Shown piece by piece: positions 35,618-53,098 of a stretch of DNA of 64,000 nucleotides (its first letter is position 1; each line of letters opens with the position of its first letter). Origin of the DNA: Acidobacteriota bacterium (lineage in GTDB: Bacteria > Acidobacteriota > Terriglobia > Bryobacterales > Bryobacteraceae). Where the stretch lies: NCBI GenBank assembly GCA_025352795.1, contig JANXSF010000137.1:62001-126000 (forward strand), in the 5' to 3' direction. The notes under the pieces were generated by a model, which worked only from the letters and a program-made list of their open reading frames with translations, was not told where the DNA came from and searched no databases. A program made the translations under genes and the position numbers.

Positions 35618-36475
35618 ATGTCATTTCGATTAGGATTTCACGCCGCTTCCGCAGGCACGCTGGAAAAGACCGCCGAGAGTGCTGCAGCCCAAGGGGCCAA
35701 TGCCTATCAAATCTTTTCTTCCAGTCCGCGCATGTGGCACGCCCCGCCTCCTGATAAAACGCAATCCCAACTTTTAGAGAGAGCGCGCACCAAGCTTGGC
35801 TTAACCCCATTGGTGATTCACGCCAACTATCTGATCAATCTGTGTTCTGCCGATTCCGGAATTCGCGCCAAGTCCATTGCTGCTTTCCGAGGAGAAGTGG
35901 ACAGGGCCATTGTTTTGGGAGCAGAGTATTTAGTGGTGCATCCGGGGAGTTCCAAAGACATTGGGATGGAGGAGGCTATCCGATTAGGCGCAGCAGGGTT
36001 GATTGAGGCCACTCAAGGCTTGAGTAGTCAGCGCTTGCAGATCCTGCTGGAAAACTCAGCGGGTCAAGGGTCAGCAGTGGGTTGTCGATTGGAAGAAATT
36101 GCCGAACTCCGCCAGCGTAGTCAGACCCATGTGTCCATCGGAATCGGCTATTGCCTGGATACTTGTCATCTGTTCTCTGCCGGATTCCCCATTCATTTAG
36201 AGGAAGGGCTGCAAAGGACTTTGGAACTTGCCGAAGCCCTTTTAAGATTGGACAACGTTCCGGTAATTCATACCAACGATTCAAAGACCCCACTGGGTTC
36301 CCATGTAGACAGGCACGATAATATTGGCCAGGGACAAATTGGTCTGGATGCTTTTGGGCGCATCATCAATTGCCCTCAACTGCGGGATAAAGTTTTTATT
36401 CTGGAGACTCCTTCAGAAGACGACGGTCATTTGCGGGACATGGCCGCGTTAAGAGGTCTGCGCAAGGCAGGTTAA
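35618..36475 (+). CDS. nfo: Endonuclease IV (apurinic/apyrimidinic)
   Basis: A 285-residue protein of the endonuclease IV family, which cleaves the backbone 5' to abasic sites in base excision repair using three zinc ions. Seen motifs: RLGFHAASAGTLEKT at the N-terminus, AYQIFSSSPRMW (about 32), VIHANYLINL (about 66, metal His), LVVHPGSSK (about 106, metal His), ILLENSAGQGSAVG (about 142, metal Glu), GYCLDTCHLFSAGF (about 182), HTNDSKTPLGSHVDRHDNIGQGQIG (about 223-247) and ILETPSE (about 262). All metal-ligand regions are present. It is followed after 60 bases by leuS. Confidence 0.95.
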   Translation: MSFRLGFHAASAGTLEKTAESAAAQGANAYQIFSSSPRMWHAPPPDKTQSQLLERARTKLGLTPLVIHANYLINLCSADSGIRAKSIAAFRGEVDRAIVLGAEYLVVHPGSSKDIGMEEAIRLGAAGLIEATQGLSSQRLQILLENSAGQGSAVGCRLEEIAELRQRSQTHVSIGIGYCLDTCHLFSAGFPIHLEEGLQRTLELAEALLRLDNVPVIHTNDSKTPLGSHVDRHDNIGQGQIGLDAFGRIINCPQLRDKVFILETPSEDDGHLRDMAALRGLRKAG

Positions 36476-36535: not shown

Positions 36536-38983
36536 ATGCCCGAAAAAAGCTACGAACATAATTCCATAGAAATGAAGTGGAGCGAACGGTGGGCCGCCGA
36601 CCGAAAGCTATTTGCCCCTGAGGAAAATTCCTCCAAGCCGAAATATTATGTATTGGAAATGCTCCCCTATCCCAGTGGCACTCTGCACATCGGCCACATC
36701 CGAAACTACGCCATAGGCGACGCCTTGGCTCGCTATAAATGGATGCGTGGGTTCAATGTGCTACACCCCATGGGCTGGGATTCGTTCGGCCTACCCGCAG
36801 AAAATGCGGCCATCAAAAACAATCGCAAACCGCGGGAGTGGACCCAGTACAACATTGAACACATGAAGCGGCAACATCGGCGCATGGGGTTCAGCTACGA
36901 TTGGGATCGCGAAGTTTCTACATGCGATCCGGAATATTACCGCTGGAATCAGTGGATGTTTATCCGCATGTATGAAAAAGGTTTGGCCTACCGCAAAAAC
37001 GCCCGGGTGAACTGGTGCACCAAATGTGCCACAGTGTTGGCCAATGAACAGGTGGTGAATGGCTGCTGTTGGCGTCATGAGGACGTTCCAGTTGAGCAGA
37101 AAGAGCTGGTGCAATGGTTTCTGAAAATCACTGCCTATGCCGACGAATTGCTCAACGACATTGCCAAGTTGGAAGGCTCCTGGCCAGACCGTGTGCTGGC
37201 TATGCAGCGCAATTGGATTGGACGCAGCGAAGGTACTGAGGTCGATTTCAGGCTGCAGGGCACTGATCAAAAAATCAGAGTTTTCACCACTCGCGTGGAC
37301 ACCATCTATGGCGCTACCTGCGTGATTCTTGCACCCGAGCATCCCCTTACTTCGCAACTGATGCTGGGCGAAGAATACGCCAAAGTAAAGACGATGATTG
37401 ATGCCCAGGCGCAGAAAGGCCCTGGCGACATTGGTAAGGAAGGCCTGTTCACTGGGGCTTATGCTGTGAACCCTTACAACCAACAAAAGGTCCCCATTTG
37501 GGTTGGCAACTTTGTGCTGATGGGCTACGGCACTGGCGCAATCATGGCGGTTCCAGCACATGATGAACGTGATTTTGAATTTTGTACCACCTATGGAATT
37601 CCGATTATTCCTGTGGTTCGTCCTTTAAATGGGGAACTGCCGTCGAAGGTGGAGACTGCCTTCGGAGAGTATGGGATCGTCGAAAATTCCGGCACTTGGA
37701 GCGGACTTCCTAGCGAGGTGGCCCGCAAGCAGATGACGGAGTTGGCAGTGCAGAAAGGTTTTGGCGAAGGTTCAATTACATTTCGAATCAAGGATTGGGG
37801 CGTTTCGCGACAACGCTACTGGGGCACTCCCATTCCCATGGTGCACTGCAAGACTTGCGGCGTAGTCCCTGTGCCTGATGATCAATTGCCAGTGCTGTTG
37901 CCTGACGATGTGGAATTTACTGGCCAAGGCCGTTCTCCCTTGGCCATGGTTCCGGAATTTATGAACACGATATGTCCCAAGTGCGGCGGCCCTGGCGAAA
38001 GGGAAAGCGACACGATGGATACGTTCGTTGATTCTTCCTGGTATTTCTACCGCTACTGTGACAGCAAGAACAGCACGGCACCATTTGATCCTAAAAAGAT
38101 TGCTTACTGGTTTCCGATTGACCAATACATTGGCGGGGTGGAACACGCAATTCTGCATCTGATTTATTCCCGCTTTTGGACGAAAGTGATGCGCGATCTG
38201 GGGCTGATCAGTAACGATGAACCAGCAGCCCGTCTGTTCACCCAAGGCATGGTCATCAAAGACGGGGCCAAGATGTCCAAGAGCAAAGGCAACGTGATTA
38301 GCGCCGATACGCTAGTGGAGCAGTATGGTGCCGATACGGGTCGTCTGTTCGAACTTTTTGCTGCACCACCAGAGCGCGATCTGGACTTCACCGATTCTGG
38401 TGCCAAAGGATCATACCGCTTCATCGACCGTGTTTACCGGTTTGTAACGCGCAGTGTGGATCGGATGAATCTGCCTGGCGATTTGACAGAAGCCGATAGA
38501 AAGGTGTTGCGCAAGCTGCATCAGGTGATTGAAAAGATCACCGTGGATTTTGAATCGCGATGGCACTTCAATACTTCCATTGCGGCATTCATGGAATTGA
38601 TCAACGAGCTTTACGCGCAGGAAGCGCAGTTGAGCGGTCCGGTTCTCAAAGATGTTTTGGAGCGAATCATCCTGTTGCTGGCACCCTTTGCCCCGTACAT
38701 TTGCGAGGAGATGTGGGAGGAAATTGGACGACAGGGTCCAGTTTTGAAGCAACCCTGGCCAAATTTCGACCCCGAATTAGCCAAAGAAGACGGCGCCGAA
38801 GTAGTGTTGCAGGTGAATGGCAAAGTGCGTGGTCGGGTAACGGTTCCCTTTGGGACAGGAAAAGAAGAACTGGAAGCGCTGGCCAAGGCCGATGAAAAGG
38901 TGCAGCTCTTTATAGCGGGCAAACCCATTGTGAAGGTAATTGTGGTGCCCGATAAGCTGGTGAATATCGTAGTAAAGGGTTAG
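36536..38983 (+). CDS. leuS: Leucyl-tRNA synthetase
   Basis: An 815-residue class I aminoacyl-tRNA synthetase. I start at ATG 36536 (MPEKSYEHNSIEMKWSERWA), matching the family N-terminus. The upstream GTG at 36482 would add 18 unmatched residues. The catalytic signatures are HIGHIRNY (about residue 53, HIGH box) and KMSKSKGN (about 579). The CP1 editing region (about 220-390) holds the TTRVDTIYGAT and MAVPAHDERDFEF motifs. A zinc-ribbon-like segment has CKTCG (about 437) and CPKCGG (about 482). It ends with the leucine-specific C-terminal domain (VVLQVNGKVRGRV). Full length. Confidence 0.97.
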   Translation: MPEKSYEHNSIEMKWSERWAADRKLFAPEENSSKPKYYVLEMLPYPSGTLHIGHIRNYAIGDALARYKWMRGFNVLHPMGWDSFGLPAENAAIKNNRKPREWTQYNIEHMKRQHRRMGFSYDWDREVSTCDPEYYRWNQWMFIRMYEKGLAYRKNARVNWCTKCATVLANEQVVNGCCWRHEDVPVEQKELVQWFLKITAYADELLNDIAKLEGSWPDRVLAMQRNWIGRSEGTEVDFRLQGTDQKIRVFTTRVDTIYGATCVILAPEHPLTSQLMLGEEYAKVKTMIDAQAQKGPGDIGKEGLFTGAYAVNPYNQQKVPIWVGNFVLMGYGTGAIMAVPAHDERDFEFCTTYGIPIIPVVRPLNGELPSKVETAFGEYGIVENSGTWSGLPSEVARKQMTELAVQKGFGEGSITFRIKDWGVSRQRYWGTPIPMVHCKTCGVVPVPDDQLPVLLPDDVEFTGQGRSPLAMVPEFMNTICPKCGGPGERESDTMDTFVDSSWYFYRYCDSKNSTAPFDPKKIAYWFPIDQYIGGVEHAILHLIYSRFWTKVMRDLGLISNDEPAARLFTQGMVIKDGAKMSKSKGNVISADTLVEQYGADTGRLFELFAAPPERDLDFTDSGAKGSYRFIDRVYRFVTRSVDRMNLPGDLTEADRKVLRKLHQVIEKITVDFESRWHFNTSIAAFMELINELYAQEAQLSGPVLKDVLERIILLLAPFAPYICEEMWEEIGRQGPVLKQPWPNFDPELAKEDGAEVVLQVNGKVRGRVTVPFGTGKEELEALAKADEKVQLFIAGKPIVKVIVVPDKLVNIVVKG

Positions 38984-45505: not shown

Positions 45506-46834
45506 TTGAGACTTTTGAAATCGTGTTTTATGTTGGCATTGGTGCCCATTGCTTGGGCCCAAATCGGCGGGTTTGGTTCCAGTTCGATTAGCGGCGGCGG
45601 AGTGCGTGAAGCCAGGGTAGGTCGTGGCGGGGACGGGATTCGACCATTTGCCAGTGTCAGTGGGGTATACGATAGCTCAGTCGGCGGAACCGCAGCCAAT
45701 GCCGCAGGCCAATTCGAAACGCAATCGTCCTATGGCGTGGAGGCAGGGTTTGGCGCTTATGGAACTAAGACTTGGCGGCGAACCTCCATTGGGTTGAACT
45801 ATCGTGGCGATTACGTTCACTATTCGAATGCAGCATCGGCCATTGGGAATGGCAGCAATCAAGTGTTGAGCTTGGCTCTTACCCATCAATTCGACAAAAA
45901 GTGGTCAGCAGAAGCGGATATTGCTGCAGGCACCACGAATCGAGTTTTTGGAGCGTTGCAGAGCTACGTTCCATTTGATCCCAATTTCAACAGTATTCCT
46001 ACAAACGAAGTGATCAACAACCGCGTGAATTATGGTCAACTTGCCGCACATGTAAGCTATCAAAAAAATAATCGTTTGAGCTTCCGCTTTGGTGGATCAA
46101 GTATTACCACTCGCCGATCCGTCAAAGGTTTGGCTGAACTACAGGGTTCAACGGTGGATGGAGAAATTTCCAGGGTGGTGAGTCGCTCTACAAACGTTGG
46201 AGTTGGGTATCAATTTTTACACTATCACTTTCTGGGATCGTTTGGAGCTTCTGACATTCATAGTATTTTTGTGCGAGTAAAGCGCAGAGTGAATCGCGAT
46301 TGGACGCTGAATGTAGCACTTCAGGGGTATCGCATTGAAAGTTTGGGTGCCACCGTAGTTCCTTTGAGTCCGGAAATTGCAGCATTGTTCGGAAGATCCT
46401 CTGGTTTGGAAGCATTTTATAAAGTCAGCACTGCCCCAGGGGTGAAAGTGGATGCAACCTACAATCGGAAACAGGTGTTTTTCTCTGTCGGGGGGGAGCA
46501 GGCCGTGGCCCCCGGTAATGGAATCTTTTTAACCAGCAAACAAACCTCTGCCAGCGCCAGCCTCAGCTACACTGCTGAAAAGGTCTGGAATTTTGGCTTC
46601 AACGTTGCCTATACCAAATACGCCAGCCTCACCCGAGACTTGTCACCCTATCAGGCGGTTCTTGTGGGCGTCGGCGTGACTCGGAAAATGCCTTGGTTTG
46701 GATCTCACATTTTTGCGCGATTCGATGCTCGGAAAATTGATCAAGCCTCTTTGACGACCATCAATCGCGATGGTTTCCGCCTTGCTGCCGGAATTGGTTT
46801 CAGCCCCAGAGCCGTTCCGCTTTCTTTGTGGTAG
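45506..46834 (+). CDS. Outer-membrane beta-barrel protein of unknown function
   Basis: A 442-residue exported protein with a TTG start at 45506 behind GGAGG (45497-45501). The signal peptide ends near IAWAQ. The rest shows alternating hydrophobic/polar strands with aromatic girdle residues (GLNYRGDYVHY, LSLALTHQF, LSFRFGGSS, VGVGYQFLHYHF, FNVAYTKYASLTRDL, HIFARFDARKID). The C-terminal stretch FRLAAGIGFSPRAVPLSLW ends in Trp, as do many outer-membrane barrels recognised by BamA (usually Phe/Trp). No enzymatic motif. It overlaps the start of the response-regulator gene. Confidence 0.8.
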   Translation: MRLLKSCFMLALVPIAWAQIGGFGSSSISGGGVREARVGRGGDGIRPFASVSGVYDSSVGGTAANAAGQFETQSSYGVEAGFGAYGTKTWRRTSIGLNYRGDYVHYSNAASAIGNGSNQVLSLALTHQFDKKWSAEADIAAGTTNRVFGALQSYVPFDPNFNSIPTNEVINNRVNYGQLAAHVSYQKNNRLSFRFGGSSITTRRSVKGLAELQGSTVDGEISRVVSRSTNVGVGYQFLHYHFLGSFGASDIHSIFVRVKRRVNRDWTLNVALQGYRIESLGATVVPLSPEIAALFGRSSGLEAFYKVSTAPGVKVDATYNRKQVFFSVGGEQAVAPGNGIFLTSKQTSASASLSYTAEKVWNFGFNVAYTKYASLTRDLSPYQAVLVGVGVTRKMPWFGSHIFARFDARKIDQASLTTINRDGFRLAAGIGFSPRAVPLSLW

Positions 46835-51479: not shown

Positions 51480-52094
51480 CTAAGTCAATCGCCGAATGAC
51501 CGTCCGCACGGCCCCTTGAATCACCAGTTCCGACCTTGGAATCAGTTCCGGATAAGCGGGATTCTCTGCCTTCAAAAACCATTTCCCCTTCACCCGCACC
51601 AGGCGTTTCAACGTGCTTTCTCCATCAATCAAAGCCACTACAATTTGCCCGGCGTTCGGATTGGGGGTTGGCTCAATCACTACCGTATCGCCACTGAGGA
51701 TTCCGGCGTCTTTCATGGAATCGCCACGAACTACTAACGCATAGCTGCCTTCCTTGGGTTTAAAGCCCAGGGTAGGTTCGTCCAGATTCAGCCAGCTTTC
51801 CGGCCTGGTTGCGTTGAACTGCTGCGGTGGCCCGGCGGGGATTTGTCCGAACAATGGAATGGGCACTGGTGGAGGCAACTGGTCTGGTTGCGAGACCAGA
51901 TCAATTTGGCGGGACCCGCGTCGTGCCCGTCGGATGAATCCTTTTGTTTCAAGAGCCAACAGATGTCCGGCAACTCCGTTGGGGCTGGCGATGGAAAACT
52001 TTTTCTGGATTTCTGGAATGGATGGGGAACAACCGCACTCGCGTCGGAACTCCACGATAAAGTCGTAAATGATCTGTTGCCGTTCCGTGAGCAT
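51480..52094 (-). CDS. lexA: LexA SOS-response repressor
   Basis: A 204-residue LexA started at ATG 52094 (MLTERQQIIYDFIVEF), the usual N-terminus. The DNA-binding winged helix spans about 1-65 with CGCSPSIPEIQKKFSIASPNGVAGHLLALETKGFI. The self-cleavage site is the Ala-Gly in QIPAGPP (about 86-92). The catalytic Ser is in VRGDSMKDAGI (about 123) and the Lys in GESTLKRLV (about 160). RecA-stimulated cleavage is therefore expected. It is divergent from a DUF72 gene; no Shine-Dalgarno is visible. Confidence 0.95.
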   Translation of the reverse strand: MLTERQQIIYDFIVEFRRECGCSPSIPEIQKKFSIASPNGVAGHLLALETKGFIRRARRGSRQIDLVSQPDQLPPPVPIPLFGQIPAGPPQQFNATRPESWLNLDEPTLGFKPKEGSYALVVRGDSMKDAGILSGDTVVIEPTPNPNAGQIVVALIDGESTLKRLVRVKGKWFLKAENPAYPELIPRSELVIQGAVRTVIRRLT

Positions 52095-52097
52095 GAT

Positions 52098-52115
52098 AGT
52101 ATAAACATTTACACT
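52098..52115. promoter_or_regulatory. Palindromic candidate LexA operator
   Basis: AGTATAAACATTTACACT is an 18-bp dyad of the form AGTnTAAAnnTTTAnACT (14 of 18 positions symmetric). It starts 3 bases upstream of the lexA ATG and ends 11 bases before the DUF72 ATG, so one site could control both divergent genes. The -10-like TATACT (leftward strand) lies inside it, as expected for an autorepressor site. Confidence 0.6.
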
Positions 52116-52126
52116 TTTCGGTTGCC

Positions 52127-53098
52127 ATGTCAACACCCTCTTTATTTGCGGAACCTCCTTCACGGCTGGCTACCTCACTGGCCAAGCTAGCGAGTCAGAA
52201 TGTTTTCATCGGGACCAGTTCCTGGAAATATACTGGCTGGATGGGGCAAATTTACCATGAAGAAAATTACCGTACGCGAGGTAAGTTTTCTCAAAAACGG
52301 TTTGAAGAAACGTGCCTGGCAGAGTATGCCGATACCTTTCCAATTGTCTGTGGCGATTTTTCGTTCTATCAATTTCCCAGTGAAGTGTTCTGGCGGAAAC
52401 TATTCGCATCAGCACCCAGCTCTTTGCGGTTTGCGTTCAAGGCACCTGAAGAAATTACGGTGAAGCAATTTCCGACGCATGCCCGCTATGGTCCTCGAGG
52501 TGGGTTGATGAATGAATCGTTCCTCAGTGCCGATATTTTTGAACGAATGTTTCTGGAATTGCTGGGGCCATACGCCGACCGGACAACGGTCGTTATGTTG
52601 GAGTTCGGTACCTTTTCGAAATCTGCGTTTGCAAAAAATGAAAGGGAAAGTGCTGAGAAGTTTGTGGAGTTGTTGGATGAATTTCTGAGTAAACTTCCGA
52701 CGACTTTCCGGTATGGGGTTGAGATTCGGAACGCCGATTTTCTAGGTCCTCTCTATTTCGATTGTCTGCGTCGGCATGGCGTTGCGCATGTGTTCAACGC
52801 CTGGACTCGGATGCCGGAGTTGCAGACGCAGATCGAATTGCCAGCAAGCCAGACGGCTGATTTCCTGGTGACTCGCGCCTTGTTGAAGCGCGATCGGCCT
52901 TATGAAGAAGCAGTGACAAAATTCGCTCCTTATGAGAAAGTGCAGGAGCCCAATCCTGCTGCCCGCATCGCACTGGCTGAACTGGTGAAGCGCGCTTTGA
53001 AGCAAAAGCAGCCAGCCTATTTATTTGTGAACAATCGACTGGAAGGGAATGCGCCAGGGACCATTGAAGCAGTACTTGATATTTTGGAAGACGATTGA
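52127..53098 (+). CDS. DUF72 family protein
   Basis: A 323-residue DUF72 (YecE-type) protein with a TIM-barrel-like fold. Seen: NVFIGTSSWKYTGWMGQIYHEENY (about residues 24-47), YADTFPIVCGDFSFYQFPSE (about 66-85), LRFAFKAPEEITVKQFP (about 98-114), VMLEFGTFSKS (about 155), TFRYGVEIRNADFLGP (about 192-207) and the C-terminal AYLFVNNRLEGNAPGTI. The biochemical role of the family is not established. It is divergent from lexA with only 32 bases between the starts and shares the palindrome there. Confidence 0.9.
   Translation: MSTPSLFAEPPSRLATSLAKLASQNVFIGTSSWKYTGWMGQIYHEENYRTRGKFSQKRFEETCLAEYADTFPIVCGDFSFYQFPSEVFWRKLFASAPSSLRFAFKAPEEITVKQFPTHARYGPRGGLMNESFLSADIFERMFLELLGPYADRTTVVMLEFGTFSKSAFAKNERESAEKFVELLDEFLSKLPTTFRYGVEIRNADFLGPLYFDCLRRHGVAHVFNAWTRMPELQTQIELPASQTADFLVTRALLKRDRPYEEAVTKFAPYEKVQEPNPAARIALAELVKRALKQKQPAYLFVNNRLEGNAPGTIEAVLDILEDD

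Follow-up and report, generated by a model that had tools for sequence, protein, structure and literature searches.

The 18-bp dyad AGTATAAACATTTACACT, which occupies most of the gap between a lexA gene (lexA1) and a divergent DUF72 gene in this Bryobacteraceae genome, is very probably a LexA switch, because the same sequence precedes the genome's own error-prone DNA polymerase genes. We followed the dyad through the window (that is, the entire 64,000-nucleotide stretch of DNA analyzed), through the assembly to which it belongs, and through 150 genomes of the family. These sequence comparisons speak strongly for a LexA box. We also consider likely the proposal as a whole, in which the dyad would be the operator of the adjacent LexA1, repressing lexA1, DUF72 and a set of genes for mutagenic repair, with a second repressor, LexA2, acting separately.

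Position of the dyad and its neighboring genes

The dyad lay where a sequence-only reading of the window had placed it. The gap, 52095-52126 (32 bp), is bounded by the ATG of lexA1 (complement of 52092-52094) and that of DUF72 (52127-52129), and the plus strand reads AGTATAAACATTTACACT at 52098-52115, the 9-base halves of which pair at seven of nine positions. The features of the region are:

51480 to 52094, minus strand: lexA1, encoding a LexA repressor of 204 aa, start ATG at 52094 (Pfam and NCBIfam matches)
52077 to 52105, plus strand: possible DUF72 promoter, TTGCCG-N17-TATAAA, with its putative -10 inside the dyad (our own reading)
52098 to 52115, no strand: probable LexA1 operator, the dyad AGTATAAACATTTACACT (sequence reading, genome and family motif scans, matrix score)
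52127 to 53098, plus strand: gene for a DUF72 protein of 323 aa, divergent from lexA1 (PF01904 and fold matches)
52128 to 52133, minus strand: TTGACA, likely -35 of lexA1, overlapping the DUF72 start codon (our own reading)

The assignment of LexA1 was firm, with matches to PF01726 (57.2 bits, cut-off 23.7), the S24 peptidase family PF00717 (88.8 bits, cut-off 23.3), and the NCBIfam lexA equivalog (138.2 bits, cut-off 110.95). The Ser, Lys and Ala-Gly positions (GDSM, TLKR and PAG) were found in all aligned LexA rows, LexA1 included, and are the residues expected for LexA self-cleavage. A scan with two short peptide patterns returned 13 loci, seven of which were close relatives (67-79% identity), all of them labeled Acidobacteria, Bryobacterales or Bryobacteraceae.

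In most genomes the center of the dyad was about 12 bp 5' of the lexA1 start codon, and 32 distinct lexA1 promoters had a TTGACA-like hexamer at the corresponding distance. This hexamer begins 17-21 bp ahead of the dyad, so that the lexA1 -10 region would be expected in the middle of the dyad. Likewise, the putative -10 of DUF72 lies inside the dyad, and bound LexA1 should therefore block the DUF72 promoter. A strict scan of 51950-52350, which demands T as the final base of the second hexamer, found no sigma-70 promoter, and the promoter positions given here are thus our own reading.

Copies of the dyad in the genome

The genome scanned was a 6.05-Mb assembly in 140 contigs, 96.6% complete. 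The pattern proposed in the sequence-only reading occurred at one place when matched exactly, and with up to two mismatches at 11 places versus 28 for a backward-read control. Loose forms of the motif were rejected for counting, because at two to three mismatches the backward control outnumbered the pattern. A one-mismatch partner of the proposed pattern, AGTGTAATCTTTTACACT, was located directly 5' of the second dnaE, and AGTGTAA-N4-TTACACT with at most one mismatch was present at four places, namely lexA1/DUF72, dnaE2, dinB and the Y-family polymerase gene ypol2. The refined exact pattern, STRTAANNNNTTAYAS, also gave four places in this genome, versus eight for its backward control; all four directly precede lexA or an error-prone polymerase gene. 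It is thus the position and conservation of the sites, not their raw count, that exceed chance.

For scoring, we used a matrix made only from lexA1 operators, so that lexA1 itself scores partly by construction, and the other genes form an independent test. The window operator, which was among the lexA operators in the matrix, scored 26.0. Under a first-order Markov background derived from the window, about two sites per Mb would reach a score of at least 13, and 2.56 million bases simulated with a first-order Markov model contained no site reaching 16. The window has another place that resembles the dyad, GGTATCAATTTTTACACT at 46206-46223, which scored 15.5 inside the ORF 45506-46834 and is probably a chance occurrence.

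Distribution of LexA1 and its putative operator

LexA1 was present in 35 of the 150 Bryobacteraceae genomes. This set comprises 33 genomes with full-length matches of at least 256 bits and two (G066 and G048) in which the gene is split over contig ends. A borderline full-length match in G107 (131 bits) was placed with the 115 LexA1-negative genomes, nine of which have no LexA match at all. The dyad was 5' of lexA1 in 33 of the 35 LexA1-positive genomes, including all ten in which DUF72 is located elsewhere. In the remaining two (G131 and G108, loci L319 and L320) it has decayed, yet lexA1 and DUF72 are adjacent. Both of these genomes lack ypol2 as well as the second DnaE, and the repressor has apparently outlived its own regulon there. 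Summed over the tables, the exact pattern gave 82 sites in the 35 LexA1-positive genomes versus 14 in 40 LexA1-negative genomes that were hand-picked and nearly all of different genera.

Genes preceded by the dyad

The sequence-only reading depended on copies of the dyad existing at other SOS genes, and such copies precede dnaE2, dinB and ypol2 in the present genome. A PF00817 search recovered exactly two Y-family genes, dinB and ypol2, both with the dyad, and a PF07733 search recovered two DnaE genes, with the dyad at the shorter, lower-scoring one. The catalytic Asp-Glu pair, which is kept in DinB, has been lost in all 15 aligned ypol2 proteins, including that of the present genome. The outcome that would have refuted the sequence-only reading, a lack of copies before other SOS genes, was not what we observed, and in relatives the dyad also precedes imuA. 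The suggestion of a recA copy fared unevenly, in that recA carried the dyad in 18 of the 31 LexA1-positive genomes scored, but none of the present genome's three recA-family genes did, although the dyad had been expected there.

Matrix scoring across the family, which left out dnaE matches below 40% identity and recA matches below 60%, placed the dyad before ypol2 in all 22 genomes examined (the 23rd ypol2, in G066, fell outside the count as its upstream region is ended by a contig end). It also preceded dnaE2 in 16 of 20 genomes, imuA in three of five, and dinB in two of eight, the last solely in the genus of the present genome. The dnaE2 genes of G015 and G079 are without the element because they are internal to operons that have the dyad at their first gene (ypol2, imuA). 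The controls were blank, with no dyad at any of 30 replicative dnaE genes or at any of ten cassette loci from LexA1-negative genomes. Moreover, ypol2 was found in 23 of the 35 LexA1-positive genomes and in none of the 115 others (Fisher p ~1e-18, kinship of the genomes ignored).

We also read what lies behind 50 sites in relatives, made up of the 49 non-lexA1 sites among those listed and one further site (L096). Among these, 38 directly precede SOS genes (ypol2 14, dnaE2 11, recA 10, imuA-like 2, and dinB 1), and 12 have no known SOS gene behind them. These data bear on two alternatives in which the symmetry of the dyad would be incidental, namely that two divergent -10 regions simply overlap there, or that a regulator other than LexA binds it. 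Divergent promoters can indeed yield AT-rich dyads over their -10 regions, and the exact pattern was outnumbered by its backward control within the present genome. However, both arms of the 18-bp dyad are retained throughout the family, the dyad is also present ahead of ypol2, dnaE2 and recA, which are non-divergent, and SOS genes lie behind most of the sites read in relatives. We consider both alternatives very improbable.

A second LexA with a different element

A second repressor, LexA2, was present in most of the 150 genomes and was about 42% identical to LexA1 in the present genome; in the alignment, the presumed recognition helix differs between the two. All 22 lexA2 promoters examined had a direct repeat, TTCGC-N6-TTCGCC, with an 11-bp period and a first half that was often degenerate, and none of the 22 had the LexA1 dyad. 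The loci noted for this repeat are L019 (lexA2 of the present genome, contig C125), L020 and L262-L281. In the ten cassette loci from LexA1-negative genomes, the LexA2 element was invariably less than about 50 bp from an imuA- or dnaE-like start. The best LexA2-like place in the window itself, at 37367 (score 16.8), was inside a leuS-like ORF.

The present genome has three RecA-family genes (L136 on C63, L168 on C55, and L169 on C86). Only the C63 copy has a recognizable LexA-type element, and this is the LexA2 repeat, located about 90 bp ahead of the gene. Among the 31 LexA1-positive genomes scored for recA, alongside those with the dyad, five had the LexA2 element (the present genome included), eight had neither, and none had both. 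For dnaE2, both elements were present in G058 and G144, and the LexA2 element only in G055 and G145. This mixture at recA and dnaE2 has the look of a regulon in transit between the two LexA proteins.

With two LexA proteins and different elements in one genome, the SOS response appears to be split between two regulators, each with its own regulon, a division of SOS genes that extends beyond the original finding. It is possible, and we put this forward tentatively, that the arrangement is two-tiered, with LexA2 and its direct repeat governing recA and an older imuA-imuB-dnaE set, LexA1 and its palindrome governing a separate mutagenesis set of ypol2, dnaE2 and dinB, to which DUF72 would belong as a fourth, so far overlooked member, and a gene-by-gene hand-over still ongoing. 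If true, living intermediates that have both LexA proteins would allow a test of the idea that LexA motifs change by hand-over.

Since the genome encodes both repressors, the dyad might instead be bound by LexA2, or by LexA1 and LexA2 together, and according to a section of PMC3789691, Leptospira interrogans is a two-LexA system in which both repressors bind at the promoter of lexA2. Against this, the lexA2 promoters uniformly have the direct repeat in place of the dyad, and dyads are few in LexA1-negative genomes compared with LexA1-positive ones, so that we regard binding by LexA2 as unlikely and retain LexA1 as the probable ligand.

The DUF72 gene

The DUF72 protein matched PF01904 at 99.2 bits (cut-off 25.3), and orthologs were found in 131 of the 150 family genomes. 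DUF72 was the divergent neighbor of lexA1 in 25 of the 35 LexA1-positive genomes, with the dyad between the two genes in 23. Away from lexA1, none of 50 DUF72 genes had the dyad, ten of these being from LexA1-positive genomes and 40 from hand-picked LexA1-negative genomes of nearly all different genera; many start codons in this 50-case set were assigned by alignment.

These distributions leave some room for DUF72 as a bystander of a short gap, with the dyad serving lexA1 autoregulation and the SOS response, no benefit to DUF72 from SOS control, and any induction of DUF72 arising from adjacency. The orthologs occur mostly in genomes without LexA1, the dyad is missing wherever DUF72 is away from lexA1, and in several LexA1-negative genomes DUF72 is directly behind an unrelated gene. 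In contrast, the divergent pairing recurs through most of the LexA1-positive genomes with the dyad retained between the genes, and, according to a section of PMC11791011, DUF72 genes are enriched near polB2, as is lexA in bacteria. We view the bystander reading as a possibility of secondary weight, and DUF72 is best seen, from its position, as probably under SOS control here. Direct SOS control, as originally proposed for DUF72, is accordingly plausible from the promoter geometry but is not conserved.

The predicted structure of the DUF72 protein (mean pLDDT 87.3) had a TIM-barrel fold, and its best fold matches were 1vpq (Z 21.1), 1ztv and 1vpy (Z 20-21), with rmsd 3.0-3.2 over 233-248 residues and 16-22% identity. 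The same three DUF72 entries were matched when an alignment profile was compared with solved structures; phmmer with the single protein returned no match among them. The next fold matches, at Z ~13, were sugar isomerases and endonuclease IV, tied, and as they are mixed no function for DUF72 follows from the fold. The comparison picked out no single DNA-repair enzyme. PMC11791011 describes the DUF72 barrel as related to UV-damage endonuclease, and this enzyme was not among the best 50 fold matches listed, which excludes nothing. Elsewhere in the window, the ORF 35618-36475 appeared endonuclease IV-like by eye and is a putative further DNA-repair gene. The operator that DUF72 probably shares with lexA would be a second kind of link tying this family to DNA-damage genes, in addition to the association reported in PMC11791011.

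Proposed regulation by LexA1

In the regulation that we infer, a LexA1 dimer bound to the dyad would cover the presumed -10 region of lexA1 and, from the opposite side, that of DUF72, and we therefore propose that both genes are repressed. Upon DNA damage, RecA filaments would prompt LexA1 self-cleavage, and cleavage would induce the regulon, comprising lexA1, dnaE2, dinB, the gene for the catalytically dead, ImuB-like Y-family protein and, judging from its location, DUF72. The LexA1 regulon would mainly be one of mutagenic repair, in which any role of DUF72 is conjectural. In the present genome, lexA2 and one recA appear to remain under LexA2 and its direct repeat.

Comparison with known LexA systems

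If the assignment is right, a large group of soil bacteria gains an SOS box and a regulon that are concrete enough to be checked. Searches of the literature on LexA in Acidobacteria, Acidobacteriota and Solibacter, whose coverage mostly leaves out subscription papers, returned no title on a LexA motif. PMC8565304 counts 17 distinct LexA motifs reported so far, and the E. coli box is written there as CTGT-N8-ACAG. The window operator, GTAT-N8-ACAC, does not have this exact form, and the claim that the dyad fails to match the E. coli box held in so far as only four of 85 distinct operators are exactly CTGT-N8-ACAG. It did not hold for the core, TGT-N8-ACA, which is present in 52 of the 85. On these counts, the putative LexA1 box can be classed with the E. 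coli type, as a variant particular to this lineage. It shares with the E. coli box the core, the spacing, and the placement of a palindrome over the promoters of lexA and error-prone polymerases. It differs in that the outer base is G or C in LexA1 operators and C in E. coli, in a nearly fixed AA/TT beside the core, and in one arm that reads TAT/ATA in 25 of the 85, the window operator included. Overall, the interpretation from which we started is supported in part: a LexA-type operator with lineage-specific details stands, the supposed unrelatedness to the E. coli box does not, the genome's own recA genes are without a copy, and direct control of DUF72 is plausible from the geometry.

The LexA2 direct repeat resembles the alphaproteobacterial GTTC-N7-GTTC given in PMC8565304. 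This source also proposes a route by which LexA motifs change, through duplication, divergence, and re-uptake of the regulon. Cells that have two LexA proteins, and genes that carry either or both elements, would open this route to direct testing.

The coexistence of two LexA proteins that differ in their elements is also known, according to sections of PMC3901139 and PMC3789691, from Pseudomonas putida, which has LexA1 and LexA2, the latter controlling the mutagenesis cassette imuA-imuB-imuC, and from Leptospira. Unlike these systems as described there, the Bryobacteraceae belong to another phylum and have other elements, and the targets in the present genome are scattered single genes. Moreover, recA and dnaE2 of the Bryobacteraceae relatives carry either element and, in the case of dnaE2, also both. 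The putative LexA1 regulon further resembles the ImuA-ImuB-DnaE2 mutasome of PMC6511836, a section of which calls ImuB catalytically dead, in that one LexA element would serve both a second DnaE and a Y-family protein without catalytic activity. However, no imuA turned up in the surroundings of ypol2 in the present genome (locus L006), where dnaE2 is on a different contig from ypol2, and ypol2 is nearer to DinB models than to a named ImuB model.
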